Source of the DNA: an uncultured Verrucomicrobiota bacterium
GTDB lineage: Bacteria > Verrucomicrobiota > Verrucomicrobiia > Opitutales > Seribacteraceae
NCBI GenBank assembly: GCA_902612125.1
Contig: CACMBV010000012.1
Location: 1 to 64,000 of the forward strand
Reading direction: 5' to 3'
Length of the DNA stretch: 64,000 nt
The notes under the pieces were generated by a model. It was given only the letters and a program-made list of their open reading frames with translations. It was not told where the DNA came from and made no database searches. Both the position numbers and the translations under genes were made by a program. This document shows, piece by piece, positions 11,313 to 64,000 of the stretch (within the stretch, counting starts at the first letter, position 1; every line of letters starts with the position of its first letter).

Positions 11313-11339
11313 GATTGAAGTTTTGAAATGGTTCAAGGT

Positions 11340-11951
11340 ATGAAAAATTACCCGCTTTTATTTTTTCCTCTTTTTCTTTTATCTGTGGCTTTCGGGTCCG
11401 AATCCATTTCATTATTTAACGGTAAGGATCTGACCGGTTGGAAAAAGGCCAACTATCTGGTGGAGGACGGTGCGATTGTTTGCAAAGGTGGCAATCTGGT
11501 TTCGGAAAAAGAATACTCAAATTATGTGTTCGAGTTCGAATTTCTTTTACCACCCGGTGGAAACAATGGACTGGGTATTCATTATCCAGGAAAGGGAGAT
11601 GCCGCTTACACGGGAATGGAATTGCAAATCCTCGATAACTCCCATGCCCGGTATGCAAAGCTAAAAGATTATCAATACCATGGATCACTCTATACCTTAG
11701 CGGCGGCCAAGCGTGGACATCTTAAGCCTGTGGGTGAGTGGAATCGACAGAAAGTAACCGTGAAGGGCTCATTGATCAAAGTGGAACTCAATGACACTGA
11801 GATTTTGAATGCAAATTTGGATGAGATTAATAAAGCCAAGCCCAAACATAAGGGTGCCCAGCGGCGGAGCGGTCATATCTGTTTCTGTGGCCATGGAGCA
11901 CCGGTTAAATTCAAGAACATTACGATTCTGGAATTACCCAACAGTAAGTAA
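11340..11951 (+). CDS. DUF1080 domain-containing protein (3-keto-glycoside hydrolase-like family)
   Basis: SISLFNGKDLTGWKKANYLVEDGAIVCKGGNLVSEKEYSNYVFEFEFLLPPGGNNGLGIHYP; ORF track start 11328; alternative ATG 11340 gives MKNYPLLFFPLFLLSVAFG signal peptide. Confidence 0.85.
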   Translation: MKNYPLLFFPLFLLSVAFGSESISLFNGKDLTGWKKANYLVEDGAIVCKGGNLVSEKEYSNYVFEFEFLLPPGGNNGLGIHYPGKGDAAYTGMELQILDNSHARYAKLKDYQYHGSLYTLAAAKRGHLKPVGEWNRQKVTVKGSLIKVELNDTEILNANLDEINKAKPKHKGAQRRSGHICFCGHGAPVKFKNITILELPNSK

Positions 11952-15224: not shown

Positions 15225-16439
15225 CTATGGTTTCGCGAATGCCGGGATCAGGTTTTCGGGTAATTCTTTAAGCATTTTTCCCATGCCTTGGTTGTGAGCG
15301 GTAGCGACGATCACAAGGTCAATGGAGGGTGCCACAAAAATGAATTGTCCGCCCGCTCCGCGTCCCTGAATTAAGGGATATTTCCTGCCTTGAATCTCGC
15401 GAGTCTGATGCCACCAAAAATAACCGTAAAAATTTTCTTCATTGGTTTGAACCAGGGGTGAGGTGGCTTTGGTTACAAAGGCTCGGGGAAGAAGTTGTTT
15501 TCCGTTCCATGTTCCTTGATTTAGAGTTAGCAAGCCGAATTTGATCATATCCCGGGAACGGATACTGGAGCCGGCTGCTGATTTCGGATATCCACTTAAG
15601 TCCTCCTGCCAGTTGAAATTGGATATGCCCAAAGGTTTAAGCAGATGGTCGCAAATAAATTGCTCTGCCGTTCCGGGTACCACAGCTTCCAGTACTTGCA
15701 TCGTGAGTACGGGATCGGAAGCCTGGTATTTGAAGGGTTTGGGAGCAGGTGGAAGGGGGCGGGTGAAGTGAAGGTAAGCTTGAGCCTGACCTTGGCCGAG
15801 CAACCGTTCAGGCTGGCTGAGAATATCGGGAAGGCTTTTTTGCGGAAGTAAAATACCCGAGCTCATCTGCATCGCTTGATCCAAGGTAATTTCATTTGCC
15901 CCCTCCGCTAATTGGGAGGAATCGATGTCCTTGAGAAAGGAGGCGACCGGTTTCTTTAGGTCCTCCATGGTCATATGCCCGAGTTGAATGGCCCTTCCAA
16001 TAGCATAAGCGGTGTAAGATTTGGTGATCGACATTTGATAATGAGGATAATTTACCCGGCCTCGTCGGTAATAAGCTTCGAGAATAAGTTTTCCCCGATG
16101 GGCGATCAATAAACTGTCGGTGTTTCCGAATTTGACCGAGTCCGAGGGGCTGGCGAGCCGGCGAGCATAGGCAAGAATCCTTTCACGATCCTCTCCGCCT
16201 GCTCCCAATTTACCCACTTTCAATTGATCCTTCCGGTCTCTCGGAGCGGGGGAAATAAATGCTTGGTTGAGATAAGGGATCTTTTTCTCGCTTTCAAAGG
16301 AAACATCCTCGGCATTAAGATCGACTACTTCAGGACCTAACCCGTTTTTGGCCACATCCTGACTAATGCATGAGGTAAGAAAGAGAGGAATAAAAAGAAA
16401 GGCTTTCAAGAATTTGGGTTGGGTAAAAGGTTTGCTCAA
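15225..16439 (-). CDS. serine hydrolase / class C beta-lactamase-like lipoprotein
   Basis: 404 aa; lipobox-like LTSC; SITKSYTAYAIGRA (SxxK); MQMSSGIL; KFGLLTLNQGTWNGKQLLP. Confidence 0.85.
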   Translation of the reverse strand: MSKPFTQPKFLKAFLFIPLFLTSCISQDVAKNGLGPEVVDLNAEDVSFESEKKIPYLNQAFISPAPRDRKDQLKVGKLGAGGEDRERILAYARRLASPSDSVKFGNTDSLLIAHRGKLILEAYYRRGRVNYPHYQMSITKSYTAYAIGRAIQLGHMTMEDLKKPVASFLKDIDSSQLAEGANEITLDQAMQMSSGILLPQKSLPDILSQPERLLGQGQAQAYLHFTRPLPPAPKPFKYQASDPVLTMQVLEAVVPGTAEQFICDHLLKPLGISNFNWQEDLSGYPKSAAGSSIRSRDMIKFGLLTLNQGTWNGKQLLPRAFVTKATSPLVQTNEENFYGYFWWHQTREIQGRKYPLIQGRGAGGQFIFVAPSIDLVIVATAHNQGMGKMLKELPENLIPAFAKP

Positions 16440-16499
16440 AGAAAGAAATGGTACGCAATGAACTTGACGGCTGATCTTGGAAGATACGGAATCAATGCA

Positions 16500-17342
16500 A
16501 TGAAAAAAATATCCCTGCTTTCTTTCTTATTCGCAACCTTAACCTGCGCCTTTGTTGCGAAGGCCGTTCCCGTTATCCGTAAGGAAATCAAAGAAGAAAA
16601 CGGCCGCAAGGTGGAGTATATGTTTATCGACGGAATCAAGGTGCATGAGAAGGATGCTGAAATACAACCGCAGCCCCCTGTGGTCGAACCCAAACCCTAT
16701 GATGCCAAAGCTGCCAAGCCACCAAAAGGAGCAATCGTCCTTTTTGATGGTACGGAAAAAACTCTGAAGAATTGGACTTCGGGCAACGGGAAACCCACCA
16801 AATGGAAATTGGTGGATGGTGCATTGGAGTCGGTTCGTGGTGGTGGATATTTACAGAGCAAGCAAGAATTTGGCTCCTGTAAATTACATGTGGAGTTTGC
16901 CACCCCCAAGGAGGTGAAAGGGAGCGGTCAAGGGCGTGGGAACAGTGGTGTGTTTCTCATGGGGCAGTACGAAATACAGGTTCTGGATTCCTTTAATAAT
17001 ATTACCTATCCTGATGGTCAGTGTGGTGCTCTTTATGGGCGGGCCAAGCCATTGGTGAATGCATCACGAGGTCCAGGTGAATGGCAAACTTATGATGTTA
17101 CTTTTCATCGTCCCATTTTTAATGATGAGGGGGAAGTTACCCGCAAGGCAAAGTTTCATGTTATTCACAACGGTCATGTCATCCATGATAATCTGCAACT
17201 CAGTGGAGGCACCGGTTGGAGAGGCCCGCACTCGATTTCCGAATACAAGAAACATGGCGATCAAGGACCTTTAAAAATGCAGGATCATGGGAACCCTGTA
17301 CGTTTTCGAAATGTTTGGATTGTGCCCTTACCTGAAGTTTGA
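16500..17342 (+). CDS. DUF1080 domain-containing protein (3-keto-glycoside hydrolase-like family)
   Basis: ORF track start 16419 overlaps the divergent neighbour; ATG 16500 gives MKKISLLSFLFATLTCAFVAKAVPV signal; GAIVLFDGTEKTLKNWTSGNGKPTKWKLVDGALE; GNSGVFLMGQYEIQVLDS. Confidence 0.88.
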   Translation: MKKISLLSFLFATLTCAFVAKAVPVIRKEIKEENGRKVEYMFIDGIKVHEKDAEIQPQPPVVEPKPYDAKAAKPPKGAIVLFDGTEKTLKNWTSGNGKPTKWKLVDGALESVRGGGYLQSKQEFGSCKLHVEFATPKEVKGSGQGRGNSGVFLMGQYEIQVLDSFNNITYPDGQCGALYGRAKPLVNASRGPGEWQTYDVTFHRPIFNDEGEVTRKAKFHVIHNGHVIHDNLQLSGGTGWRGPHSISEYKKHGDQGPLKMQDHGNPVRFRNVWIVPLPEV

Positions 17343-20160: not shown

Positions 20161-23043
20161 TTACCTTTTCTTTTTTTTCTTTTTTTGACCTTCAATATTT
20201 TCCAGCCACTTTTCCAGGTTGGGGAGGATGTCCGCTTCCGATTCGTCAATGAGGGGAGAAGGATCGGGCATATTTGCATGCGGTCGCACCTCGGCCTCCA
20301 TGACGCTGAAGAATTTATTATTCTTTTGGCTCAGTTTTTTCAGCACCTTAGGGTATTGCTTCGCCAGGTTGTGAGTTTCCCCAAGGTCCTTCTCCAGGTC
20401 AAACAACTGTTTTCCGACCATCTTCCAATTCCCGAGCCTGTAGGCCTTGCCCTTATGGGCAAAACCCTCATGGGGTGATTTTGCCTTGTCGGGATCCAGA
20501 AAGAGGTCAGACAGATCGCGCCCGTCAATTCTGTTGCCCGAAAGTTTGCCGCCGCAAAGTTTGGCAAAAGTCGGAAGCAGATCGAAGCTGACCCCAATTT
20601 CGTGAGAGACTTTACCAGCAAGAATGGATTCAGGCCAGCGAATCAGAAAGGGTGTCCGCGGACCGCCCTCGTACAAAGAGCCTTTACCTCCTTTCAGCGG
20701 TCCCATGCTCGTCCCCCTCGATCCACCATTATCAGACATGAATAGGACGATGGTGTTTTTCTCGACTCCCAGCTCCTTCAAGGTGCTAAACACAGTGCCA
20801 ACCGCGGCATCCAGCTCTTCGATCTGAGCCTTGAGGTGAACGGTAAGCTCTGCCCCGGTTTTATTGGCCTCGGAGCGGGGAGCTCCGTCAGGCAGGAAGT
20901 CCGGGTGTCCTACGCGAGGAAGATGCACTGAGGCATAGGGCAGGTAGGCAAAGAAAGGTTCCTTCTTTCCGCCTTTTTCCCGAATGAACTCCAGGGCGGC
21001 TTTTGTCGTTGCCTGCGTCAGCAAGCTCTGATCGGTGGGATTTTTTACAACCGCCACGGACTTACCATCTATGATCCAAGGTAGCGGAGTCTGCCAGTCC
21101 TTCAGCTTCTTCCATATCTTAGTCGCGGGATGATAGGGGGCCCACATATCATTGGAGTATGGAATTCCCTCATAGACATCAAAACCATGGTCGTTGGGCA
21201 GATAACCGGGCCGATGACCAAGGTGCCACTTACCGAAGCATCCCGTTGCATAACCGGCATCCTTAAACATCTCGGCCATGGTATACTCGGACGGGTTCAA
21301 GGCTTTGGCTTCGTTGGGAAAACATACTCGACCATCCATTCCCACACGCTTGGCGTAGCAACCGGTCAGAAGTGCCGCTCTCGACGGCGAACAATTTTGC
21401 GAGGCATTATAGAAGTTAGTGAACTTAAGACCCTCCGCTGCCATCCTGTCCAGGTTTGGCGTCTTGTTGATCGTTGAACCAAAAGGCCCAATATCCCCGT
21501 AGCCCATATCGTCAATAAATATAAGCACGATATTAGGCCTGGCTGGGGAGTGCTTGCGACGCCATTCAAGCAAAGTGGGCACACTCTCCGAATCAGTCAG
21601 AAGTGGCTTTGGGTTGTCTGCATAGCCGGCCGGGCGAATCTCGCTTTCCAGTTTCTCGACATGCATATCCAGTGCAGAGATTAATTCCCTGACCTTTTCC
21701 GGATGACGGTTGGCTAGGTCTTTTTGTTCGCCCAGATCTTTTTCCAAGTCATACAACTCCGCAAAACGGTCGGCTTTTACCCGGTAGCGGACGAGCTTCC
21801 ATTTTCCCTGCCGGATCCCTTCCTTTTCGTAATAAAGTGTTTTGTGGGGAGATTTGGCCTTCTCTGTTCCCAGTAGGATATTGCTGACATCATGCCCGTC
21901 AATGATCCGATCCTGAGGAACTTTTTGGCCGGAAAGGCTCCCGATGGTGGGCAGGAAATCGATGGTGGCCATAATCTCCGAGGAGACGGATCCTGGAGGG
22001 ATTTTTCCGGGCCACCAGGCGAGGGTGGGGACCCGCATGTGCCCTTCGTATTTGGGACCAAACTTATGCCCCCGCAAAGGACCACTGTTGGTCTTGCCTG
22101 CTCCTCCGTTGTCATTGGTGAAAAGAACTAAGGTATTATGCTCGATGCCATTTTTTCGGATGCAGTCAAGGATCCGACCCGTACTTGCATCAATCTCGCC
22201 AACCAGCGCACGCATCACATCATCGCCCGCGGAATTCAGCCGTTCCGGAGTTACCATAAAGGGGGCGTGTACCGCAGAGTGAGGGATGTAGCAGAAAAAT
22301 GGCTGGTCCTTATGCCTGTTGATGAAATCGATCGCAGCATCAGTTATGGAGTCGGTAATGACCGCCTGGCTGGAAGCATCGGGGATGTGGGCAACGGGCT
22401 GGTTTCCAACCATCCAGGGAAGGGGCGGGTAGTTTCTTTTGGGGTTACCCGGAACCCACATGTCATTGGAATAGGGTATCCCCTGATATTCATCGAAGCC
22501 TTGAGCCAGGGGCATAAAGGGAAGCTGGTCTCCAAGGTGCCATTTGCCGAAGCATCCGGTCTTATATCCGCCTTCCTTTAGCATCTCGGCTATGGTAATT
22601 TCCTTCGGATTTAACCCCCGCTTATCTGCGGGGAAGACCACGCTTCTCCCCATCTCAATACGGTCAGCGTAGCATCCCGTCAGAAGAGCGGACCGGGAGG
22701 GGGTGCAAGCCGTGGAACTGACATAAAAGTCGGTGAGTTTCATGCCTTCCTCCGCCATCCTGTTCAAATGAGGGGTGGGGTGATCCGATCCGAAAGGCCC
22801 GATATCTCCGTAACCCATGTCATCAGTGAATATGATTACGAAATTGGGTTGGTTCGTTTTTGCGAGTGACCCGAGATTGACTAAGCCTATCGTGCTTAGG
22901 ATGAATAGCACTCGATAAAAGGAACTGGGCAAATGGTGATTGATAATTTGCAAGCTGCGAAAAGAATGAGATAGGGTGAGGAAAAGGGATAGAGATTCCA
23001 AATCTGGAAATACAATATTGTGTAAAAGATTCCTCACCTGCAA
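20161..23043 (-). CDS. tandem double sulfatase (two S1 domains in one polypeptide)
   Basis: 960 aa; domain 1 NQPNFVIIFTDDMGYGDIGPFG...ACTPSRSALLTGCYADRI; domain 2 RPNIVLIFIDDMGYGDIGPFG...NCSPSRAALLTGCYAKRV; exact start uncertain. Confidence 0.92.
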   Translation of the reverse strand: MQVRNLLHNIVFPDLESLSLFLTLSHSFRSLQIINHHLPSSFYRVLFILSTIGLVNLGSLAKTNQPNFVIIFTDDMGYGDIGPFGSDHPTPHLNRMAEEGMKLTDFYVSSTACTPSRSALLTGCYADRIEMGRSVVFPADKRGLNPKEITIAEMLKEGGYKTGCFGKWHLGDQLPFMPLAQGFDEYQGIPYSNDMWVPGNPKRNYPPLPWMVGNQPVAHIPDASSQAVITDSITDAAIDFINRHKDQPFFCYIPHSAVHAPFMVTPERLNSAGDDVMRALVGEIDASTGRILDCIRKNGIEHNTLVLFTNDNGGAGKTNSGPLRGHKFGPKYEGHMRVPTLAWWPGKIPPGSVSSEIMATIDFLPTIGSLSGQKVPQDRIIDGHDVSNILLGTEKAKSPHKTLYYEKEGIRQGKWKLVRYRVKADRFAELYDLEKDLGEQKDLANRHPEKVRELISALDMHVEKLESEIRPAGYADNPKPLLTDSESVPTLLEWRRKHSPARPNIVLIFIDDMGYGDIGPFGSTINKTPNLDRMAAEGLKFTNFYNASQNCSPSRAALLTGCYAKRVGMDGRVCFPNEAKALNPSEYTMAEMFKDAGYATGCFGKWHLGHRPGYLPNDHGFDVYEGIPYSNDMWAPYHPATKIWKKLKDWQTPLPWIIDGKSVAVVKNPTDQSLLTQATTKAALEFIREKGGKKEPFFAYLPYASVHLPRVGHPDFLPDGAPRSEANKTGAELTVHLKAQIEELDAAVGTVFSTLKELGVEKNTIVLFMSDNGGSRGTSMGPLKGGKGSLYEGGPRTPFLIRWPESILAGKVSHEIGVSFDLLPTFAKLCGGKLSGNRIDGRDLSDLFLDPDKAKSPHEGFAHKGKAYRLGNWKMVGKQLFDLEKDLGETHNLAKQYPKVLKKLSQKNNKFFSVMEAEVRPHANMPDPSPLIDESEADILPNLEKWLENIEGQKKKKKKR

Positions 23044-45625: not shown

Positions 45626-47194
45626 TCATTTCACATCGAGGAAGGAGAGATAGGAAGCTAATTCGTGATCACCGGTTTTTCGAAGAGTATTTTTCATCTG
45701 ATTACGAACTTCCTCCAGTTTGCCTTGGTATTTGGCTACCAGGGCTAGGTTGTGATGGCAGCCGGGATCCGTTTTAACATTATATAACTCTTCCCTGGCT
45801 CTTACTGTAATAAAATTATGTTTGATAAGGTAATTTCCATATTCTAAATCAGATGGATTCTTGACCAGATCGGGGAGCAGGAAATGAAATTCTCCAAGCA
45901 TGCTCGGGGGGAGCTCAGTGGCCCCATCAGCCCATCCGTTCCAGACATAACAAAAGTTACGGTTGTTCAGGGATCTGGATGGTCTGTACTGATCAAATTT
46001 TTGAAATAAATTTTTACTGTACGCCTGAATGGTTTCGTCGATCTTTGGATCGTTGTTCATGTAGTTAAAGCAACTGAATGCCCATGATCGATTCCATGCC
46101 TGCTTTTTACCTGTCAATCTTCCGGCAAAGGATTCTCCGTCCGTTCTGACATATTCTTGCAAGCCGCAAATTTCAGCGATAGTCGGAGCAATATCCACAA
46201 CCGAGATAACTGATTTGGAGTCCGTTTGTCCTCGCTTTATCCGGGAAGGCCAACGGATAATGATCGGAGTACGAACGCCTGACGGATAGAGCGACCATTT
46301 ACTCAGATCCCAGGCCATTCCATGATCTGAAAGAAAGATGACCACTGTATTCTCTTTGTTTCCGCATTTTTCAAGCACGGTGAGAACTTCGCCAATGATT
46401 TGATCCATCCGATTGACCGAGTCGTAATAAGTAGCCAAGACTTCCCGAATCTTTTCCTCTTTTGGGTAGGGTGCAGGCACCGGGCACTTCGCTGGTGCAA
46501 ACTTGGTCTGGGGATCGGGGTAGGGTTTTCCGTTGTCCAACGCTTTCCACGAAGCCCCTCCCATCATCTTCCTGATCCAGTCGATTGATTCGCTTGGATG
46601 TCTTGCCCAGTAACGATGGGGATCATGGGTGTTGATCGAGAGAAAGAATGGTTTATTTTTTTCTTTTGCCTGGGTCAGAAAGTCCAGGGTGAAACGGGAG
46701 AATTTTTCGGGATTTCTTCCCATTCCCGTCTGATCATTATCTCCATGGGGAGGCTGACTGAACTGGCACCACTGGGATCCATGTTTGCCAATCATTCCGG
46801 TAAGGTAACCCTTTTTCCATAATTCAGTGGTTATTGATTGAGTATCCGCATTATTTCTGGTCGTCTTCCACCACTTGGGCGGTTGGGCCCCATGCCCAAG
46901 CATACCGTTACTTTGAGGATGTCTTCCGGTGTAGAGGGCTTGCCTCGATGGCCCGCAGATCGGGGTGGCTACAAAGCCGTGTGTAAGGAGCAAACCTTCG
47001 GCTGCCAAGCGATCAAGGTTTGGGGTCAGGCCCGTGAGTTCATTACCCATGCATCCGAGTGAATCCCAACCTAAATCATCCGCCGTAATCAGCAGGATGT
47101 TGGGGTATTCTTCGGGACCAGCTTTCACCAATCCTCCCAATGATAGGATGTTGAGCAGGAGCAGGACTGAGAAAATGTATTTGATACTATTCAC
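45626..47194 (-). CDS. sulfatase
   Basis: ORF track start 47254; GTG at 47194 gives VNSIKYIFSVLLLLNILSLGGLVKAG signal; YPNILLITADDLGWDSLGCMGN; ICGPSRQALYTGRH. Confidence 0.92.
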   Translation of the reverse strand: MNSIKYIFSVLLLLNILSLGGLVKAGPEEYPNILLITADDLGWDSLGCMGNELTGLTPNLDRLAAEGLLLTHGFVATPICGPSRQALYTGRHPQSNGMLGHGAQPPKWWKTTRNNADTQSITTELWKKGYLTGMIGKHGSQWCQFSQPPHGDNDQTGMGRNPEKFSRFTLDFLTQAKEKNKPFFLSINTHDPHRYWARHPSESIDWIRKMMGGASWKALDNGKPYPDPQTKFAPAKCPVPAPYPKEEKIREVLATYYDSVNRMDQIIGEVLTVLEKCGNKENTVVIFLSDHGMAWDLSKWSLYPSGVRTPIIIRWPSRIKRGQTDSKSVISVVDIAPTIAEICGLQEYVRTDGESFAGRLTGKKQAWNRSWAFSCFNYMNNDPKIDETIQAYSKNLFQKFDQYRPSRSLNNRNFCYVWNGWADGATELPPSMLGEFHFLLPDLVKNPSDLEYGNYLIKHNFITVRAREELYNVKTDPGCHHNLALVAKYQGKLEEVRNQMKNTLRKTGDHELASYLSFLDVK

Positions 47195-48914
47195 TGAACC
47201 GGAGTACTTCGTTTCTATACCATTTCCACACCAGGCAAGCACCGGTGCATGCAATGACGAAGCAGATCAGGCATGCCGGAAAGTTAAGCAGTATGCCATA
47301 GGCAATGGTGAGCGATAAACCATAACAAAGCATAACGCCGCCCACCACATCCAGCCAACTCGAAAAGGTCAAAGCCTCTCCGGAAACCATTCCCACTGCT
47401 TTCCGGATGGGCCCCCAGGCTCCTCCGGGCCGAATTTGTTGATAAAATTTTTCCAGCTTCTTTTGAGCAACTGGCTTAGTCAAAAAGGTTACGAGTAGAC
47501 TGAGGGGAAATATCACACTGACCAATAGGGCGACCTTGAATTCCCAGGCAAAGTCTCCCCATGGCTGTCCAAAAATTATCAGGCCGGGGTCTAAAGTTTT
47601 GAACAGAATGCCACCCAATAACCCTCCAATCAGAGCAGTCAGTTCGGTGTAAGCATTGATTCTCCACCAGAACCATCGCAGCACCGAGGCAATCCCTCCG
47701 GGTATCATCAGGTAGGCTAGCCATTCCATCACCCCGGTTACTGATTGCACCTGGGTGGCAATCGCTGCACCGGCAAGCATCAGTAAAACCATAAAAATTT
47801 TGGAAGCCCGAACATAATGAGTATCTGTTCCTCCCTTATGGAAGAAACGTTTATACAAATCGATGGTTAGGAAGGAAGCTCCCCAGTTTAGGTGCGTATC
47901 AATGGTTGACATGAAGGCGGCCAGAAAGGCGGTAATCAAAAGCCCCTTTAGTCCTATGCCAAGGTATTCATTGATCACCATTGGGTAAGCTTTGCTGTGT
48001 TCAGTGAGAGTAGGGAAAGCAATGATGGAAACGAGCCCCACTACGACCCACAGCCAGGGACGGCAGGATTGAAAAATGGAGTAGAACAAGGTCGCCCGAA
48101 TCGCATCCTTCTCATTTCGGCAGGCGGACATTCGTTGCATGTTGTATCCGTTGGCATCACTCCACCAGACAAGTGTGAAAATAACCAGCATTTTCAGGAC
48201 ATCCGAATTGAAGGTTGAAAAATCAGGAAAGATAGAGAGGGTTTTTTCTCCGTATTCAGGCAGGGTACGAATTTCCGCGAGTATCTCCTCCATCCCTCCC
48301 GACTGGCTGACCGCAATACAGGCCAGGGCAAGCATACTTCCCATGGTAATAAAAAATTGCACCACATCGGTGGTCACTACGCCGTAGAAGCCTGAGAATG
48401 TCGCGTAAAATAAAGCCACTGCCATCAGTACGATAATGGCCTGGGTTTGATCAAAGGGGGTGAGGACCTCAATGACCGTGCTCATCCCAAAAGTGACCCA
48501 GCCGATGGTTAACAGATTTTGCAGGATTCCGCCATAACACGCCCGCACTCCCCGCAGGATGGCGGCAGATTGGCCATCATATCGGAATTCAAAAAACTCT
48601 GCATCCGTAATCAGGTTGCTTCTTCTCCAGAGTCTGGAAAACAAAAAGATGCCCACAATCAGGGGAAGAACTGAAACGATGACCCACCACATCCTTTCGA
48701 GACCATCTTTGCGGGTAACTTCAGTGACCCAGATCGGGGTATCGGAGGCAAAGCTCGTGGCGATCATGGAAAGACAAATGGCCCACCAGGGAAGGGATCT
48801 TCCGCCGAGGAAAAAGGATTCAGAATTTTTGGAGGCTTTACCGGAAAAGAAAAAGCCAACTGCAATCGCAAACCCTATGTATGCAAAGATGATGCTGTAA
48901 TCGAACCAATGCAT
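47187..48914 (-). CDS. sodium:solute symporter (SSS) family protein
   Basis: 575 aa; many TM segments; SFFLGGRSLPWWAICLSMIATSFASDTPI; FLAAFMSTIDTHLNWGASFL. Confidence 0.93.
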   Translation of the reverse strand: MHWFDYSIIFAYIGFAIAVGFFFSGKASKNSESFFLGGRSLPWWAICLSMIATSFASDTPIWVTEVTRKDGLERMWWVIVSVLPLIVGIFLFSRLWRRSNLITDAEFFEFRYDGQSAAILRGVRACYGGILQNLLTIGWVTFGMSTVIEVLTPFDQTQAIIVLMAVALFYATFSGFYGVVTTDVVQFFITMGSMLALACIAVSQSGGMEEILAEIRTLPEYGEKTLSIFPDFSTFNSDVLKMLVIFTLVWWSDANGYNMQRMSACRNEKDAIRATLFYSIFQSCRPWLWVVVGLVSIIAFPTLTEHSKAYPMVINEYLGIGLKGLLITAFLAAFMSTIDTHLNWGASFLTIDLYKRFFHKGGTDTHYVRASKIFMVLLMLAGAAIATQVQSVTGVMEWLAYLMIPGGIASVLRWFWWRINAYTELTALIGGLLGGILFKTLDPGLIIFGQPWGDFAWEFKVALLVSVIFPLSLLVTFLTKPVAQKKLEKFYQQIRPGGAWGPIRKAVGMVSGEALTFSSWLDVVGGVMLCYGLSLTIAYGILLNFPACLICFVIACTGACLVWKWYRNEVLRFSE

Positions 48915-48918
48915 GTTT

Positions 48919-50904
48919 TCAGGGGTTGAAATCGATTACGATTCCATCACAAACCAGATGACCATGGGTGCGTGTTAGGCTTTTATTAGCCGGAGTCATC
49001 ACCAGCATCACCGCTTCCCTGGCAGGAATGACAAAGGTTTGTTGTCCGCTTGCATTTTCGCTCAGGATCCGGTTGGCGATCGCATCGTAGATCCGAACCG
49101 AATTTTTACCCACATCCCATTTTATCGATTGGGTCCGGGGGTGTGGGTTGAAGAAAATTCGGGTCGGGAAAGCCTCGGGTTTCAGGATATCCGTGATCAC
49201 CGGATTAATCGCGAGAATAGCCTCGATATTTGTGGGCTCGATCAGGGAGGCAAGGAAACCGACATTGGAACCACCGTATAAGCCCAGGTCAGTTTGAGCC
49301 CATCCATGTATGGTGGCATCACCCCCCACATGAGGAGGATTCGGGAGCCTGCTTTCAACAACCATGTCCTGTACTTTTATGACTTCTCCCGGCTTGAGCC
49401 CCTGAGCCTCTAGGATGATTTCGATTTGTCCTTCGCCGGAAAACTGAATTTTCTGATCATCCCGAAGCTTATTTTGAAAAGTACCATGGAGGTCTTCTCT
49501 TCCTTTTATGAGAAAACGAATATCATTTTCGATTTTCCGGTGCCGAATAACTATAATTAAAGAATGGGAAGTGGTATCCGGAAGTTCAATGGTGCCAGCA
49601 TAATGGATCTTTCCCTCCGCATCCGCGGTGAGAAACATGTCCTTGTCTGGATTGGTGGAGTGGCCAAGCCTGAGCATGCCCGTTTTCATGCGATCATTCT
49701 CGGGATATCTGCGCAGGGTTCCCTGTTTTCTGATACCCTCATAAGGAATGGAAAATAACGGATCATTTTTCTGGGCCCATGAATAACTTGTCTGTTGGCT
49801 GGGAGGCCATGAGTCAGGGTAAAAGAAACGGGCATTGGAGGCGACATGCAGAACCCACTTGGCAAGGTCTTTTGCAAAGTGATCTTCATATCTTGCAATC
49901 GGGGTCATGATGCCGATTGCCTGAAAAGTATTCATCGCAAATGCGTACTCATATTCCGGGTAGACGCTGCCAATCAGACCATGAACCGGGGTGCCATTCC
50001 ACATCTCTCCAATCATACCCCACTTCCTGGGATTGTCGCCGGCAAGGACCCATTCAATAAACTTACCCGTTTGGTGGGTTCCGTTATTTTCCGCATTGTA
50101 TACGGCCGAGGCATAAGCTCCATAGGGAGCAAGTGATTCGTAGTACGGGTTGATTTTTCTTAGATCCATCCAGTCGAGGCATTTTTCCGCAATTCGGAGA
50201 TGGTCATCGTCTGCCGTTTCCTTCCATCCCACATACTGAAGGCAGGCTAGCCCGGCGACCACATCGGCCTCGATCCAACCTTGGTTTACGGGTTTCTTTT
50301 TACGGAAATCATAACCGGTGTAATCAAAGTTTTGACCCAGTTGATCGGTGATCTCAGCCCATTTATGAACCGTTGACAAAAATTGTTCCTGGTATCCCGT
50401 GATCTGGGGGTAATGTTTGTAAATCTGAGTGAATAAAAGGCTGGGAAGAAGGTCATACCAAAAGCTCCCCCCAGTTGAGCCGGGCTGATTCAGGTACAAC
50501 CCTATGCCATTTTTCCGGTCAAAGTGGGCGGATAGCATGGCGGCATGAGTAGACCTGTCGTTCCCCAGCAGAATGCCATTGAGAACCGAAGCCATCGAGG
50601 TAATGGCCTCATGAATATTGGTTTCTGAACTCTGGCGTGAGTCTCCCACATAAGTGGGTAACCCGAAGCCATTCACATCATTTACAATTTTTGCCTTGTC
50701 CTCCCAGATCAAAGGCAGAAACTTTCCGGTCCGGTTCCGGTCAAAGACTAGTTTATCAAATTCATGGGCAGTTTTATCCCAGTCTCGTAATAGGTAGTCA
50801 GGTGGCAAATCGGGGATTTTGGCAATGGTCGGTAGGCTTTGCCCAAAGGCACAGGACATCAAACATATCGAGATGAGTAAAAAGATTCGCACCTTACTTC
50901 TCAA
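48919..50904 (-). CDS. secreted protein of unknown function, possibly (alpha/alpha)6-barrel glycosidase-like
   Basis: 661 aa; signal MRSKVRIFLLISICLMSCAFG; W/Y-rich helical N-terminal region; C-terminal beta-rich region; overlaps upstream DUF1861 gene. Confidence 0.5.
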   Translation of the reverse strand: MRSKVRIFLLISICLMSCAFGQSLPTIAKIPDLPPDYLLRDWDKTAHEFDKLVFDRNRTGKFLPLIWEDKAKIVNDVNGFGLPTYVGDSRQSSETNIHEAITSMASVLNGILLGNDRSTHAAMLSAHFDRKNGIGLYLNQPGSTGGSFWYDLLPSLLFTQIYKHYPQITGYQEQFLSTVHKWAEITDQLGQNFDYTGYDFRKKKPVNQGWIEADVVAGLACLQYVGWKETADDDHLRIAEKCLDWMDLRKINPYYESLAPYGAYASAVYNAENNGTHQTGKFIEWVLAGDNPRKWGMIGEMWNGTPVHGLIGSVYPEYEYAFAMNTFQAIGIMTPIARYEDHFAKDLAKWVLHVASNARFFYPDSWPPSQQTSYSWAQKNDPLFSIPYEGIRKQGTLRRYPENDRMKTGMLRLGHSTNPDKDMFLTADAEGKIHYAGTIELPDTTSHSLIIVIRHRKIENDIRFLIKGREDLHGTFQNKLRDDQKIQFSGEGQIEIILEAQGLKPGEVIKVQDMVVESRLPNPPHVGGDATIHGWAQTDLGLYGGSNVGFLASLIEPTNIEAILAINPVITDILKPEAFPTRIFFNPHPRTQSIKWDVGKNSVRIYDAIANRILSENASGQQTFVIPAREAVMLVMTPANKSLTRTHGHLVCDGIVIDFNP

Positions 50905-51760
50905 AGCTGAGGAACGGATCTTTCATGTCAAGGAATCCTGCTTCAGCATCACTCAAACCAACAAATAAACGGGCATTTCCGTCTGCAAATCTTTGAATCC
51001 CTCCAGAGAAGATCACATCTCGTAAATCCGCTCTTTTAGCCTCTCCTGCAGGGAAGTCGCTCCGTTTTGCAATAACTTCAGGCAGGGTGGATCTGCCTGT
51101 TTCCAAATCGATTGAAAAAACCATGGAATAATAGTGACGATCCCCATCCTCGCTAAATTCTGCAATATGGCCAAGGACACCAATCTTTCCATTTTTAAGG
51201 TAATGGGCCTCATTGGCACCAACCCATAAATCTTCCGGACAATGATCGAAGAGGGGGGCTTTTTCGATTGCCTCGTAAGTCGCATCCTCCAATGAATCAA
51301 CCAGGCAATAACCAATCTTGCCGCGCCCTCCTTTTTCACCCTGCGGTCTGGTCAGAACCAGAATTTTATCGTCCGGTAGTTGCAGAAAGCGGATGTCCTT
51401 CATTTTTGGCGGTCCGCTCAGTACCTGTTCAAAGAATCCTTCACCCCTTTGCAAATAGAATTCCATTTGCCATGCTTTATCGTTCTCTCCTATCTGAACT
51501 GGAAACCTGACGCCACCAAGTAATATTTTTCCGTCTATTTTAGTCACACAGGGATCCTGCAGACCTTCAAAAGACGGGCCGTTGGGATAGGGTTGCCACT
51601 GGTTTTCGGATTTTTCAAAAAAAATGATCCGGGATAATTCTTCTTCTCTTTTTTCAACCCGGCCCGCAATCACCACTCGTCCCATCCATTGAAAGGGGGC
51701 GGTTATATTATAGATATCGTGTTCAGGAAAACCTAAAAAGTTTAGTTTACCGGAATTCAC
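50894..51760 (-). CDS. DUF1861-like protein (five-bladed propeller, GH130-related)
   Basis: 288 aa; HDIYNITAPFQWMGRVVIAGRVEKREEELSRIIFFE; LQDPCVTKIDGKILLGGVRFPV. Confidence 0.72.
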   Translation of the reverse strand: MNSGKLNFLGFPEHDIYNITAPFQWMGRVVIAGRVEKREEELSRIIFFEKSENQWQPYPNGPSFEGLQDPCVTKIDGKILLGGVRFPVQIGENDKAWQMEFYLQRGEGFFEQVLSGPPKMKDIRFLQLPDDKILVLTRPQGEKGGRGKIGYCLVDSLEDATYEAIEKAPLFDHCPEDLWVGANEAHYLKNGKIGVLGHIAEFSEDGDRHYYSMVFSIDLETGRSTLPEVIAKRSDFPAGEAKRADLRDVIFSGGIQRFADGNARLFVGLSDAEAGFLDMKDPFLSFEK

Positions 51761-52797
51761 AAAGATTGAAGAATTTCATGGATCGAAAATTCGGCAGAAC
51801 AAATTACACTGTCCGAGGCGCCATAATAAAGAGTTAGTTTATCATCATCGACAACATGGCCATTTGTAAAGACAACCTTGCCAAAGAAACCTTCTTTTTC
51901 ATAAGGCGCCGTGGGTTCCATAATCGGTTCCCTGCTTCGGCCTATTACTTTCGACGGGTCTTTTTTGTCCAGCAATAAGGCTCCCAGGCAATACCGGTTT
52001 TGATGATCCGCCCCGTGGTAAATTGCTAACCATCCTTGTTCGGTCTCAATGGGAGCGGCACCGGCTCCAATCCGGGAGGAATCCCAGGCCCCATCCCGGG
52101 TGCGGGCAACGCAGGCATGATTGCCCCAATCAGCTAAGTTGGGAGAGGAGGCCAACCAGATGAAGTGACCTCCCAGACCCACCCCACTTGGCCGGTGTAA
52201 ACAATAGTATTTTTCTTCGATTTTTGATTCAAAAATGGCGCAGTCTTTGTTTGCGGGTGGTAAAATCATCCCGAATTCTTCGTAGCTTTCCCAATTGAAT
52301 GTGCGTCGCAAACCCACGCCATATCCGCTTTCGGAAGTTGCGGTGTAAGTAAGTAGAAAAGAACCATCCGCCATCGAAGCTACCCGACAATCTTCAATTC
52401 CATAGCCTTCCAGATCTCCTTTGCCGGTGATACTGGGCAAGGCTGCATCCTCAAAGTGGATCCCATCCTCACTCTTAAACAATCGCAGATGGGAGAGGGT
52501 GGACAGGTAGGTCTCGCCCTTGTATCTGGGTTCACGTGGATCCCGTGTGTCCAATAAAGGATCATCCAAATCAAAGGAAATGATTGCAACCCTTCCGTTT
52601 TGCAGGACGGGGAAAGAAATTTTGCCTTCCTTTTGCTCGGGTCTTTCCGCTACCCGCACCACCAGCCATGTCAATTTCTGGAATTGGAAAACGCCGGGAT
52701 TTAAGAGGCACTCCACTTGTGTGCCGGGGTGATGTGATTTGACCTGTGAAGGTTGTAAGAGCGGGTTGTGGGGGTTGCGGTTAGCCAGGTCGGTCAT
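51757..52797 (-). CDS. glycoside hydrolase/phosphorylase family 130 (beta-mannoside phosphorylase-like)
   Basis: ORF track start 52866; ATG 52797 gives MTDLANRNPHNPLLQPSQVKSHHPGTQVECLLNPGVFQFQ; GYGIEDCRVASMADGSFLLTYTA; GLGGHFIWLASSPNL; GWLAIYHGAD. Confidence 0.88.
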   Translation of the reverse strand: MTDLANRNPHNPLLQPSQVKSHHPGTQVECLLNPGVFQFQKLTWLVVRVAERPEQKEGKISFPVLQNGRVAIISFDLDDPLLDTRDPREPRYKGETYLSTLSHLRLFKSEDGIHFEDAALPSITGKGDLEGYGIEDCRVASMADGSFLLTYTATSESGYGVGLRRTFNWESYEEFGMILPPANKDCAIFESKIEEKYYCLHRPSGVGLGGHFIWLASSPNLADWGNHACVARTRDGAWDSSRIGAGAAPIETEQGWLAIYHGADHQNRYCLGALLLDKKDPSKVIGRSREPIMEPTAPYEKEGFFGKVVFTNGHVVDDDKLTLYYGASDSVICSAEFSIHEILQSL

Positions 52798-52801
52798 GAA
52801 A

Positions 52802-55800
52802 TTATTTGACGAGGAAGGCATGGCCCCAGTCCGCATGGTCTCCTTCCGGTTTGCCATCGCGTCCATTGGTCACCACCAGTTTGAGCTCATCCGCTCCTTC
52901 CACGGATATATCCAGTACCTTGGCCGGTTGCCCTTTTTTCATATCCCCGCTGTCAAAAACTTTTTCTCGGTCCACATGCACCTCGAAAGTCAAGTAGGTA
53001 TCTTGGCCTCCATCATTGTGCCCAACCATGCTGTAAAACCGCCTGAATTCCTTTCCGCTTAGATCGTAGGTTATTTCACTGTGTGCATGCGTACCAATAC
53101 CATGAGAAAATTTTTCACCGGCAATTTGCAACTCGCCTCCGGTTATGGACCGGTTCTGCTTGGCGGTACTCCATCCAACCTTGACTTCCTTTGCCTCGGC
53201 AATCTTGAGATAATGACGGTCCCTAGGTTTGTACTGGTCGACATCCCCCATGCCCGGTCCAATGATTTCTAGGTTGTATAATTGCCACCAATTATTTTTT
53301 TCCTCCAGGCTGGTAATCCGGACATTTTTGGCCACCACCATATCGAATGGAATGGTGGTAACTTGGGCTCCCTTAAATTGATCCGCAACCGTAACCCAGG
53401 AGTCACCATTTTCAGAAATCTCCACTTTGACAATACCCGGGTAATCTCCCCCCCTGGCCGTAAGGATAACCTTAAAGACATTTCGCTGATGAGGGAATTC
53501 AGCCTCAATCCAAGTACCAACCTTCAAGGCTGCCTTGGTTGCGAAAGTCGTTTTCTCATCCTCATCCTGAATGTACTGCAGATGTGGTTGACCATGACTC
53601 GCCGAAAGTTTCCAGAGTTTGATCTCACTGCCTGAATTGAGCAGAACTTCGCGAAGGGAAGCCTCGGTGAATGCCTGCGTCATATCAGCGGTTTCCTTGC
53701 GGGCCTTGGCGACTTCTTCGGTTTTGATCATTCCCGCCTGGTTGCCAAAACTGCTGCGTATGTAAGTCAGTACGGATGCAATATAATCATCATCATTTGT
53801 TTTCAGGGGCATCATGTAACCACCCACATAGGATTGACCGCGCAAAGGGCCGGAAATCCCCTGTAGGGCTACTTTAGCAAGCACATCCTTGGAACCAATC
53901 ACCGTGGGATTATTAACAAAGGACGGGGCCATTTTCATTTTTCCGTCCGGGGTGACGACCCCGGTTCCGTCCGGGGCGTGGCAGGTGGCGCAGAGGGATT
54001 CAAAATGTTTTTTACCCGCGTTAAGCAGGGCGACTTCTTCAGCCTCCAGCCGGGCCAATTCTTTTTGCCGGGCCACTTCCGCAAAATAATCCTTATTCAA
54101 CTCATCATCAATTTCCCTTAGGTATTGGTTGGATGGGTTTGCTGCCAGTACGGAACCAGCCAGTGCCCGGGTTTCAGGCGTTACCCTGGTCGAGGCCGAA
54201 AGCAGAAGCTGAATGGCGACATCGTGATGAGGATCGCTTGCCAAAGATTGAAGCATGGAAACGGTATTTATATCTTGATGGAAGAATGGTTCTGTCATCC
54301 GTATGGCTGCGGCCCGGACCGTCGGGTCATCATCCCGGTAAATCTTTTGCAGGAAATCCAGGTCAATCGCGTCCAATCCCTCGATTGTCCAGAGAGCGTG
54401 AAGCCGTGTAAGCGGGTTTCCAGAGCTCGTGGCCAGTTGCCGCAGGTCGGCAAGCACCGACCGGTCACCTTTCAGAATGATCAGTTTCTGGGCTTCGTCC
54501 CGCCACCATCCGTTCGGGTGGGAGAGGTGCTTGATCAGTTCAGCGGAGGACTCGTTGAGCATGTTGGGGCGAGGCCCGGGCTGGAAGGCAGAGTGGCGGA
54601 CCCGGTAAATCCGTCCACGCTGGATATTCTGGTCCAAACCATAGTGCTTGATTGCGCTATGAATGAATGAGCCTTCAGGAACCCAGGCGGATTCCTGGAC
54701 AACCCCTCGATGCATATCCACGAGATAGAGGGTCCCATCCGGTCCGGTTGCGGAATTGACCGGTCTGAAATTGGCATCCGAACTGGCAATGAATTCCTCC
54801 TGGTGATAGGAATTGTGAAGTATTTTTCTCCCAAAAGCATCGGTTTTAAAGGTGGCCCGCCGGGTCAGGCGCCCGACTGGCTCATGGAAGAATAAATCCC
54901 CAACTAATTCCTTTGGCAGTCGGTCACCACGAAAGACAGTTTGCCCGCAGGTAGCGGTGAAGCTTTTGGCCGTGTTGTCTGCCCGCATGCTTCCAAAACC
55001 TCCCTGGGAATCAGCAATATGGTCGATCGGGAAAACTTCCCGGAAACCTTCGGCCATGACCCACTTTGGGTGCCATTTTGTGTAAATATTGGGAAAGAGT
55101 GGATGAGCCGGTCCGATCCCGGCACCCGCGTCCACAAACAAGACTTTCCCGTGGTTGTCTTGGGTTAATCCCCATTGTCCGCGGTTGCCCTTGGTTTCTC
55201 CCTTGATCACTTTACCGTCGCGTAAACGAAGCCGGTAATCGCTGTATGTCATGTACAACCAATTGTCCATGCTCCAGATCAATCCGGATGGTTGATGTTC
55301 CACATTACCCCCCCGTTTTCCCCCCTCAAACCAGATTTTCTTCTCCTCGGCAACCCCGTCATGGTCACGGTCGAAATATTCATAGATGTCATTGGTGTTG
55401 GATTCTCCGATGAGCACGGAATCAAGCAGGGGTAGGATCATTCTTGGAAGGATCAGGTCTTGGGCGAAGACCGTTTTATGATCCATGATGCCATCTCCAT
55501 CGGTGTCTTCCAGTCGGACCACTTGGCTCACCGGTTCGTCCGTGCCGGTTCCCTTAATGTCCTGCATGTAAGTCCGCCATTCCGCAACATACATTCTGCC
55601 GTTTCCATCCCAAACGCAGACGGTGGGCTCGGTGACCAGGGGATTATCTGCTACCAGTTCAAGCGAATAGCCTGGCTGCACTTTAAATGTTTTCTGGCTT
55701 TCTTCGGGGCTTTGGAAACGAACGGTCGGATCTTGCGTGCCTTCTTTCGGGGGAAGCGAAAAACTTGGTTTGGGAATGGATTCAGTTTCTGCATCTAATT

Positions 55801-56644
55801 CTTTGAGCACGAAACGAAAACCCTGATACCACATCTTGAGTATATCCTTGTGCCAATAAATGTGATGATTATGTCCGGGGCTGGAAACGAAAATTCTCCC
55901 CTTCCCGTATTCTTTAACCCACGCCATGGCATAGTCATTATCCTCTCTTTTTCGACCTCCCCGGTGGTTTTCAAACTTGGACATGTCGATTGAAAGTAGA
56001 ACCCGTACTTTCTCGCGTTCAAAATCTTTGTACTGATAAAGTTCATCATTGATTTTAAAACTCCGGTTCCCATCAAAAATTCCCTTCACCACGGAATGAC
56101 TTGGATCTTCATTGCAGAGACAATAAGTACCATTATGACCCCATGGATGACCGTCAAAATTACCCCCAATCATTTCCGTATAACCGGGCCAGCCTCCGTC
56201 CGTCGCCGCGTGAATGGCGACAATGCCGCCCCCATTCTTAACATATTCAAGAAATTCTTTCCGCATCTTTTCTGTGGTCAGTCCTTTTTCAATGCTGGTT
56301 GAATTATTCAGATAAACCGCGTCGTAATTTTTGAGGTTTTCAGCACTTAGGTCTTTGGGGTCATTGGTGAAATCAGTTTCAAACAGACCCGTTTTTTCTC
56401 CCATTTGTCTGGCCATTTCCCTGGCTACGGCTATCGAGCTGTGGTAGTAAGTGAACGCTTTTGAAAAGACCAATACTTTATGTTTTTTTCGTGGTGTGAT
56501 CCCTTCCGGTATGGCCTTGGAGATATTTTCAATTTCCTCAGGTGTTGCCTGCTTGGCCCCCTCTACTTTTTGATTGGGCCCGAAAATTACGGCAATCCCC
56601 AGACAGATGGTCAATATTTTAAGGAGAAAGCGGGAAATTTTCAT
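52802..56644 (-). CDS. ThuA + PVC-type beta-propeller + HEAT + cytochrome c + F5/8 type C + NPCBM fusion protein
   Basis: 1280 aa; ThuA: HKVLVFSKAFTYYHSSIAVAREMARQ...GGGIVAIHAATDGGWPGYTEMIGG; propeller: RMYVAEWRTYMQDIKGTG; heme: LCATCHAPDGTGV; discoidin-like and NPCBM-like C-terminus (FSHGIGTHAHSEITYDLSG). Confidence 0.9.
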   Translation of the reverse strand: MKISRFLLKILTICLGIAVIFGPNQKVEGAKQATPEEIENISKAIPEGITPRKKHKVLVFSKAFTYYHSSIAVAREMARQMGEKTGLFETDFTNDPKDLSAENLKNYDAVYLNNSTSIEKGLTTEKMRKEFLEYVKNGGGIVAIHAATDGGWPGYTEMIGGNFDGHPWGHNGTYCLCNEDPSHSVVKGIFDGNRSFKINDELYQYKDFEREKVRVLLSIDMSKFENHRGGRKREDNDYAMAWVKEYGKGRIFVSSPGHNHHIYWHKDILKMWYQGFRFVLKELDAETESIPKPSFSLPPKEGTQDPTVRFQSPEESQKTFKVQPGYSLELVADNPLVTEPTVCVWDGNGRMYVAEWRTYMQDIKGTGTDEPVSQVVRLEDTDGDGIMDHKTVFAQDLILPRMILPLLDSVLIGESNTNDIYEYFDRDHDGVAEEKKIWFEGGKRGGNVEHQPSGLIWSMDNWLYMTYSDYRLRLRDGKVIKGETKGNRGQWGLTQDNHGKVLFVDAGAGIGPAHPLFPNIYTKWHPKWVMAEGFREVFPIDHIADSQGGFGSMRADNTAKSFTATCGQTVFRGDRLPKELVGDLFFHEPVGRLTRRATFKTDAFGRKILHNSYHQEEFIASSDANFRPVNSATGPDGTLYLVDMHRGVVQESAWVPEGSFIHSAIKHYGLDQNIQRGRIYRVRHSAFQPGPRPNMLNESSAELIKHLSHPNGWWRDEAQKLIILKGDRSVLADLRQLATSSGNPLTRLHALWTIEGLDAIDLDFLQKIYRDDDPTVRAAAIRMTEPFFHQDINTVSMLQSLASDPHHDVAIQLLLSASTRVTPETRALAGSVLAANPSNQYLREIDDELNKDYFAEVARQKELARLEAEEVALLNAGKKHFESLCATCHAPDGTGVVTPDGKMKMAPSFVNNPTVIGSKDVLAKVALQGISGPLRGQSYVGGYMMPLKTNDDDYIASVLTYIRSSFGNQAGMIKTEEVAKARKETADMTQAFTEASLREVLLNSGSEIKLWKLSASHGQPHLQYIQDEDEKTTFATKAALKVGTWIEAEFPHQRNVFKVILTARGGDYPGIVKVEISENGDSWVTVADQFKGAQVTTIPFDMVVAKNVRITSLEEKNNWWQLYNLEIIGPGMGDVDQYKPRDRHYLKIAEAKEVKVGWSTAKQNRSITGGELQIAGEKFSHGIGTHAHSEITYDLSGKEFRRFYSMVGHNDGGQDTYLTFEVHVDREKVFDSGDMKKGQPAKVLDISVEGADELKLVVTNGRDGKPEGDHADWGHAFLVK

Positions 56645-56929: not shown

Positions 56930-57115
56930 TTGCATTTTACCAAGGCATTTGATCAGGCGTTGGACGCTGACTGTGATAAGGGAGAATATGAAATTCACTC
57001 CATTGGTAACGGAGAACGCAACCGGTGGGTCGAGGAAAAGGATTATATTTTGAGTCCGAAAAGTAAGGAGATTTCTCACACCTTGGGATTTTCATCCCGC
57101 CAATATTTTTCAACT
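56930..57115 (+). pseudogene. possible AraC-family regulator C-terminal remnant
   Basis: In-frame KEISHTLGFSSRQYFSTV resembles the AraC second HTH (eIA..lGFsS.qYFs.vFk); ends abruptly against the 3' end of the opposite-strand deoxyribosyltransferase-like gene. Confidence 0.4.
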
Positions 57116-57538
57116 GTCGGGAAACGAGCTAATAAAAGAAAGAATCTCTTCTTTCGCCTGATCCAAATTATTGTAGGGGAAAGTCCTGAATTGGGGGTTC
57201 CCGGAAATCATCGCTGAAAGTTTCCGGCCTTCCTTTGTATTCTCATATAGACAAAGGATCGGTTTGTTCATTTTTTCGGCAATTCCCAGTTCATATCCAA
57301 CGCCGAGGGAAGGATTTGTCACTTCCGCAACTACGGCGTCTGCGGATGCGAGCCATTCGAGATCTCGCTGATATATTTCCTGATCGGAAAGATTTTTCTC
57401 TCCAGTTTGTTCAAGGTCAGGATCGCCTACATGTTCAGTTAGAACCTCAACCTTAGACGAAAGAAACCGAATAAGTTCATTGTATTTGTTTTGATCCTCT
57501 CTTCCTCCGCGGATCGAAGCCGCAAAATAAATTTTCAA
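57110..57538 (-). CDS. nucleoside 2-deoxyribosyltransferase-like protein
   Basis: 142 aa, TTG start; KIYFAASIRGGREDQNKYNELIRFLSS; YQRDLEWLASADAVVAEVTNPSLGVGYELGIAE. Confidence 0.88.
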   Translation of the reverse strand: MKIYFAASIRGGREDQNKYNELIRFLSSKVEVLTEHVGDPDLEQTGEKNLSDQEIYQRDLEWLASADAVVAEVTNPSLGVGYELGIAEKMNKPILCLYENTKEGRKLSAMISGNPQFRTFPYNNLDQAKEEILSFISSFPDS

Positions 57539-62971: not shown

Positions 62972-64000
62972 ATGTTTGTTCGATCTGTTTTTTCTTGTTT
63001 CATCGTCTTTGTTTGCCCGGGTATACCTGGTAATCTGGGAGCGATTCCGGATCGTCAATCTTTCGCCCGTGTCGAACGGCCCATCGAAGGGGTTCCAGTG
63101 GATGCATTTCAATTGGATGATTCTAATCTATCGATTGAATTGTGGGCCCGCTCGCCCATGATCTATTCTCCGGTGGCCATGGATTTCGATGCGGACGGGC
63201 GCTTGTGGCTAACCGAAGGCATTGATTACCAGCGGGGCCGTCGGGTGGATGCGGGTCGTTCGATCATGGTTTTGGAGGATTCAGACTGGGATGGCAGGGC
63301 GGATTCCTCCAAAGTTTTTGTCACCGAAAAGGAAATCCGGCATGCACCGCTGGGAATTGCGGTTTTTGATAATCGGATCGTGCTTTCTTCGACCCCCTCC
63401 ATCATCGTCTACACCGATGTGAACCGCAACCAGGTGTTTGAACCTGAAATTGATCAGCGCGAAGTATTTCTCAACGGTTTCCGGGATGCCAATCATGATC
63501 ATACCCTGCACGCGGTGGTGGGGGCACCAAGTGGCCAATGGCATTTTTCCTACGGTAACCGCGGAGCTGATATCAAAACCAGGGATGGCAGGCATTTTAT
63601 TTCCGGTTGTTATTATGGCTATGTCGATGGCATTGGTAAAAAGAGTTCAGACGGGGAAGTCTATGTGGGAGGTATGAGTATGCGGATTAATCCCGATGGC
63701 ACGGGGTTGTCCCCAACCGGAGAAAATATGCGCAACCCCCATGATTTATTTATCAGTTCTTATGGTGATCAGTACCAAAGTGACAATGACGATCCCGCTC
63801 ATGCCCGGATCAGCTGGGTGATGGAATATGCCAATATGGGCTATGCCGATCTTACCGATGGTAGCCGTTCCTGGGAAGAAGTGGCCAAGACCTGGGAAGA
63901 ACCTGCAGGCTGGAGCAAGAGTCGCCGGTTTTCCAAATCTCACTGGCGTGAAAATTATCCCGGTGCATTTCCTCCGGGTACGATTTACGGGGCGGGTTCT
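62972..64000 (+). CDS. PVC-type membrane-bound dehydrogenase-like beta-propeller protein (truncated by window edge)
   Basis: Own translation: MFVRSVFSCFIVFVCPGIPGNLGAIPDRQSFARVERPIEGVPVDAFQLDDSNLSIELWARSPMIYSPVAMDFDADGRLWLTEGIDYQRGRR...; open to window end. Confidence 0.8.
   Translation, partial: MFVRSVFSCFIVFVCPGIPGNLGAIPDRQSFARVERPIEGVPVDAFQLDDSNLSIELWARSPMIYSPVAMDFDADGRLWLTEGIDYQRGRRVDAGRSIMVLEDSDWDGRADSSKVFVTEKEIRHAPLGIAVFDNRIVLSSTPSIIVYTDVNRNQVFEPEIDQREVFLNGFRDANHDHTLHAVVGAPSGQWHFSYGNRGADIKTRDGRHFISGCYYGYVDGIGKKSSDGEVYVGGMSMRINPDGTGLSPTGENMRNPHDLFISSYGDQYQSDNDDPAHARISWVMEYANMGYADLTDGSRSWEEVAKTWEEPAGWSKSRRFSKSHWRENYPGAFPPGTIYGAGS

Follow-up and report, generated by a model that had tools for sequence, protein, structure and literature searches.

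Propeller-cytochrome proteins have multiplied in Planctomycetes, Verrucomicrobia, and Bacteroidota. Where the related PSCyt genes lie beside sulfatases, they are thought to mirror glycoside hydrolase (GH) genes; in 2017, He et al. stated that nothing was known about their functions (PMC5615132). The use of 3-keto-lactose in the periplasm has been linked to LacABC and to DUF1080, a 3-keto-disaccharide hydrolase domain (PMC9007349), while the making of 3-keto derivatives from trehalose and maltitol has been ascribed to thuAB (PMC6515357). Here, we describe a gene of an uncultured Opitutales bacterium that joins ThuA to a propeller-cytochrome module. It lies on contig CACMBV010000012.1 (assembly GCA_902612125.1), of which positions 1 to 64,000, referred to below as the window, were analyzed. 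The source genome, which appears to be of marine origin, is a metagenome-assembled genome of 2.4 Mb that is 64% complete. The encoded protein has in common with the PVC-type heme-binding CxxCH proteins (TIGR02604/DUF7133, "Piru_Ver_Nterm") a propeller-HEAT-cytochrome c core that scores above the curated cutoffs. To this core it adds an N-terminal ThuA domain, C-terminal F5/8C and NPCBM domains, and a dedicated operon. We give a probability of about 0.5 to the explanation, taken as a whole, that the fused protein works in the periplasm as a redox enzyme that breaks down glycosides.

The fused gene (positions 52802-56644, minus strand) encodes 1280 aa from an ATG start in an uninterrupted frame. 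From the N to the C terminus, the protein starts with a signal peptide judged by eye (MKISRFLLKILTICLGIAVIFGPNQKVEG-A; residues 1-30, 56555..56644), followed by ThuA (residues 55-277, 55814..56482; PF06283, 1.4e-42), which scores 146.8 bits against the curated Pfam cutoff of 33.4. The PVC-type beta-propeller (residues 311-684, 54593..55714) matches both DUF7133 (PF23500, 2e-95; 320.8 bits against a Pfam cutoff of 27) and the NCBIfam model TIGR02604, "PVC-type heme-binding CxxCH protein" (1.5e-46; 159.4 bits against a cutoff of 122.2). HEAT repeats follow (residues 700-781, 54302..54547; PF13646, HEAT_2, 6e-9), then a cytochrome c domain (residues 875-963, 53756..54022; PF00034, Cytochrom_C, 4.8e-5, above its curated cutoff) that carries the heme motif CATCH in the sequence (residues 885-889, 53978..53992). 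The C-terminal part consists of an F5/8 type C, discoidin-like domain (residues 1020-1121, 53282..53587; PF00754, 6.4e-9) and an NPCBM/NEW2 domain (residues 1144-1276, 52817..53215; PF08305, 3.7e-35), the latter matched by PDB chains over the same stretch; all of these features lie on the minus strand. The Pfam scan found no DUF1080 domain (PF06439) in the fused protein; sister fusions do contain one.

The initial annotation had read this 1280-aa chain as ThuA, propeller, HEAT repeats, CATCH, and discoidin-like and NPCBM-like domains, and had proposed a domain search and a structure prediction. Every named domain was recovered by Pfam or NCBIfam. The AlphaFold2 model of residues 300-990 is confident, with a predicted local distance difference test score (pLDDT) of 91.8 and a predicted template modeling score of 0.91, and its HEAT region is helical; propeller, HEAT repeats, and cytochrome thus probably form a single rigid unit. 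Judging the signal peptide by eye, we expect export to the periplasm, and F5/8C and NPCBM are presumed to bind carbohydrate. Chimeric assembly or a frameshift joining two genes is ruled out by independent full-length orthologues with the same domain order.

The swap of the electron carrier at the C-terminal side of the propeller provides the best indirect sign of redox function. Cys885, Cys888, His889, and the presumed distal ligand Met944 are identical in all nine aligned fused proteins, cytochrome c assembly genes are present, and the cytochrome domain matches the cytochrome c of a heme-Cu nitrite reductase at 2.0 Å by Foldseek. In two other propeller proteins of the source genome, L122 and L148, an azurin-type cupredoxin (CTFPGHxxxM) takes the place of heme c at the C terminus. 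Because heme c is here swapped for an unrelated one-electron carrier, electron transfer would seem to be the purpose of this module. The L122 protein also has a ThuA match that falls below the curated cutoff. Both cupredoxin genes (L148:859-4092 and L122:1409-5968) encode a GDSL domain as well, with the cupredoxin at the usual place of cytochrome c.

The propeller itself shows kinship with sugar dehydrogenases. Profile comparison by hhalign with ten canonical GSDH proteins gave a probability of 96.6% (E = 4.8e-10). In this comparison, His450 aligns with the GSDH catalytic His and Arg627 with the first Arg of the RxRD motif; these residues are kept in 66/69 and 67/69 propellers, respectively. 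Among the best solved folds, Foldseek listed the Trichoderma AA12 enzyme, pyranose dehydrogenase, and s-GDH; PDB entries 1cru and 3das are among its hits. A profile of the 69 propellers had no significant match among PDB sequences. Virginiamycin B lyase and calmodulin were rejected as kin, their weak matches being judged chance (DxDGDG loops).

The ThuA domain appears to be maintained as closely as the propeller. The initial annotation had considered that ThuA catalytic residues might be absent; His68, His145, His166, Glu201, and His258 are kept in the fused protein and are conserved across ThuA proteins in our alignments. The accessible literature yielded no established ThuA active site. Between classes of the phylum, ThuA domains are 66 to 67% identical compared to 67 to 68% for the propellers, which suggests a similar constraint on ThuA.

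Both ThuA and the propeller-cytochrome module recur in combination with DUF1080. A second propeller gene begins within the window (62972..64000, plus strand; start only) and runs off its end, continuing as L123:12973-16575. Its product is a 1201-aa propeller-HEAT-cytochrome c-DUF1080 fusion with a probable orthologue at L128:9603-13196. Another protein of the source genome has DUF1080 first and the cytochrome last, with a middle that looks propeller-like by eye. Two genomes of the order Opitutales encode ThuA-DUF1080 fusions, a third encodes ThuA joined to AP_endonuc_2, a TIM barrel of the sugar-isomerase type, and the source genome has two further sites at which ThuA and DUF1080 genes adjoin. 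These fusions link the ThuA, propeller-cytochrome, and DUF1080 families pairwise. Together with the carrier swaps, they support a predicted redox enzyme in 3-keto-glycoside metabolism. The source genome holds 24 DUF1080 domains above the cutoff and, incomplete as it is, about 13 DUF7133 propeller genes. Stand-alone DUF1080 genes also occur in the window (11328-11951 and 16419-17342, plus strand), and sulfatase-DUF1080 and DUF3500-DUF1080 fusions are encoded elsewhere in the genome (L153:1-1551 and L154:1181-2833).

Orthologues of the fused gene, full-length or at a contig end, were found in five genomes of the genus (85% identity) and, with NPCBM, in two genomes of another class of the phylum (62%). 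A close relative, the Opitutales isolate AM-382-K23, carries the same gene (84%), which places the window in Verrucomicrobiota, order Opitutales. Of 146 propellers placed in a tree, 15 carry ThuA in the same open reading frame (ORF); their distribution requires five changes, at least four of which are forced by well-supported branches. In one of the 15, L121, ThuA sits at the opposite end. Given the long branches of this tree and a sample drawn in part with ThuA-containing queries, its frequencies are not estimates. Read from this tree, ThuA became attached to propellers of this kind on at least four occasions. Where unfused ThuA genes occur near propellers, 13/14 are directly adjacent and on the same strand. 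In Pedobacter, Paradesertivirga, and Ginsengibacter, the two parts are separate neighboring genes, with ThuA immediately preceding the propeller-HEAT-cytochrome gene as it does in the fusion. Acquisition of a ready-made Pedobacter pair was rejected, as the Pedobacter ThuA is only 28 to 30% identical compared to 37 to 48% for other ThuAs.

Downstream of the fused gene, a conserved operon on the minus strand points to a possible substrate. A GH130 gene (51757..52797; PF04041, 4e-44) encodes a beta-1,2-mannoside phosphorylase-like protein whose likely start, MTDLA at 52797 by comparison of orthologues, lies 4 bp past the stop of the fused gene. The protein is nearest to the mannoside synthase/phosphorylase Uhgb_MS (7e-143), then to Lin0857 (1e-79); its matches to models of beta-1,2-mannobiose phosphorylase stay under the equivalog cutoffs. 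The next gene (50894..51760) encodes a DUF1861 protein (PF08950, 1.9e-94) like the Leishmania MPT proteins (PDB MPT-4, 3.5e-38), which presumably turn over the beta-1,2-mannan mannogen. It is followed by a secreted 661-aa protein (48919..50904), a sodium:solute symporter (SSF) (47187..48914; PF00474, 5.8e-32), and, at the end of the conserved operon, a sulfatase (45626..47254; PF00884, 9e-44). From the kinship of GH130 and DUF1861 and the presence of the sulfatase, the substrate is likely a beta-1,2-mannoside, possibly sulfated. The two phosphorylases may instead serve biosynthesis or storage.

The gene order was held in 4/4 same-genus loci with downstream sequence, and linkage of the fusion with the GH130 and DUF1861 genes was also seen at L031. 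In the other class, the DUF1861 and 661-aa genes stand divergently beside the fused gene, without GH130, and a sulfatase homologue (52.5%) adjoins the fusion at L186. The 661-aa protein is thus a conserved partner across classes. It had no Pfam, NCBIfam, or convincing PDB match, and an AlphaFold model from two sequences was unusable (pLDDT of 34.8); that it represents a new glycosidase family is speculative. The operon and the recurrence of the fusion both go beyond the initial annotation.

Elsewhere in the window, at least 14 sulfatase ORFs between 4536 and 47254 make up a sulfated-glycan locus, in which the ORF at 20161-23043 holds two sulfatase domains in tandem. On the other side of the fused gene, the interval up to DUF1501 holds a conserved nucleoside deoxyribosyltransferase-like gene (57110-57538, minus strand) and, in some relatives, an AraC-type regulator.

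Taken together, these data suggest the following route. The glycan would be held by F5/8C and NPCBM while the GSDH/AA12-like propeller, with His450 as the base, oxidizes one hydroxyl of a sugar, the most likely product being a 3-keto glycoside; heme c would receive the electrons and deliver them to the respiratory chain. ThuA would loosen the glycosidic bond by acting on the keto product as a hydrolase, a lyase, or an isomerase; this is the least certain step. By homology, the products would be desulfated, taken in by the SSF symporter, and split by the GH130 and DUF1861 phosphorylases. The more specific proposal, that a PQQ-free propeller oxidizes a mannoside residue via heme c and ThuA of the same chain completes cleavage, making a single-chain oxidative glycosidase, is possible but doubtful. 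The initial annotation had likewise suggested that the propeller oxidizes a glycoside and that ThuA acts on the keto product. The dehydrogenase homology, the carrier swap, and the pairwise fusions with DUF1080 speak for this reading.

Several observations weigh against the redox reading. The top fold match of the propeller by Foldseek is HHIP, which is not known to be an enzyme. The GSDH motifs RNPQG, EHGPxGGD, and NYGWP, which in s-GDH bind pyrroloquinoline quinone (PQQ), are not conserved in the propeller. The RN position is variable among propellers (G25, S10, N10, R6), NYGWP and EHGP are absent, and one Arg of RxRD is kept. A search of 42 family genomes, run without a positive control and with the source genome only 64% complete, found no PqqE above the cutoff and no PqqC. 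Propellers are also fused to NPCBM and GDSL domains, so that fusion alone is not specific. An independent fusion, L187:4779-8087, seems in an alignment-dependent comparison to have lost most of the conserved ThuA residues, and L121 has propeller and ThuA with no electron carrier at all. Neither DUF1080 nor a MocA-type gene forms part of the operon. With the PQQ motifs lost and no PQQ genes recovered in that search of 42 genomes, a quinone cofactor is unsupported. The likeness of the propeller-cytochrome pair to quinone- and heme-linked sugar dehydrogenases, as put forward in the initial annotation, thus holds for the GSDH homology, the catalytic His, and the heme, and lacks support for the quinone. 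As far as its sequence goes, the propeller resembles a sugar dehydrogenase in outline and is not to be classed as a PQQ dehydrogenase.

The same loss bears on the possibility of an AA12-like aldose dehydrogenase, in which the propeller would use scavenged PQQ to convert reducing ends (C1) of sugars to lactones, with ThuA acting on the lactone or as an accessory. AA12, pyranose dehydrogenase, and s-GDH are the closest enzyme folds, and the GSDH homology is real; the lost PQQ motifs, the lack of PQQ gene matches in the 42 genomes searched without a positive control, and fusions that point to a 3-keto hydrolase and not to lactonase domains make this quite unlikely. A stronger rival, indeed the strongest, dispenses with net redox chemistry: the propeller would be a redox-neutral glycosidase or lyase, or run a closed oxidation-elimination-reduction cycle, with the heme secondary and the fusion in effect a mannosidase. 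Its main argument is Lac161_ORF7, a ThuA-less propeller-HEAT-cytochrome c protein that, when purified, reportedly released glucose from lactose with a Km of 1.8 mM in an assay for which no electron acceptor is mentioned (PMC5342196). That readout was a glucose oxidase/peroxidase kit, open to disturbance by a redox heme protein, and complementation by the cosmid was seen in S. meliloti and not in E. coli (PMC5342196); the result therefore also fits an oxidative route. As the heme/azurin swaps suggest that electrons matter, we consider the redox-neutral alternative unlikely.

Least probable is a non-catalytic ThuA that merely binds sugar, leaving the propeller as the sole enzyme. There is precedent in Agd3 and a levan surface protein, in which ThuA-like folds are binding domains (PMC7229062, PMC7618045). 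Yet Agd3 and ThuA-like proteins have no conserved surface residues in common, whereas the His/Glu set of ThuA is conserved across ThuA proteins, and the ThuA domain is as constrained as the propeller. The impaired root colonization of thuA mutants and the 3-keto products ascribed to thuAB (PMC6515357) also argue for a catalytic role.

Public genomes already contain such fusions, labeled generically, and their core family is known. What is new is the full architecture, together with its recurrence, the exchange of carriers, and the operon for a likely mannoside. The ThuA and DUF1080 fusions, the heme/azurin swap, and the substrate-specific operon narrow the question to heme-linked oxidation of beta-1,2-mannosides. 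If the redox reading is true, a redox route of glycan breakdown would stand beside hydrolases and lyases, ThuA would gain a defined catalytic step, and a large uncharacterized enzyme class of PVC bacteria and Bacteroidota would break glycosidic bonds by redox chemistry.

Among known systems, Lac161_ORF7 (AGW45552), reported as a beta-galactosidase, has the same three core domains, a likeness drawn from its description (PMC5342196); unlike the fused protein, it has no reported ThuA or NPCBM. The Pedobacter, Paradesertivirga, and Ginsengibacter pairs keep ThuA upstream of the propeller-HEAT-cytochrome c protein but as two genes, with the ThuA 28 to 30% identical, and their neighbors include none of the operon genes except for a weak sulfatase match in one. 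The PQQ sugar dehydrogenases (GSDH PF07995, AA12, and s-GDH) have a homologous propeller and the catalytic His position in common with the fused protein, which lacks their PQQ-binding motifs and carries a fused heme c and ThuA. With the rhizobial ThuA/ThuB system it has the ThuA family in common; there, ThuB is a separate, cytosolic oxidoreductase of the NAD type, whereas the partner here is an exported propeller-heme module. The Caulobacter LacABC and DUF1080 pathway for 3-keto-lactose resembles our proposal in that periplasmic oxidation is proposed to precede keto-sugar cleavage. It differs in using another oxidase, and DUF1080 is found outside the fused protein but on related propellers in the source genome.

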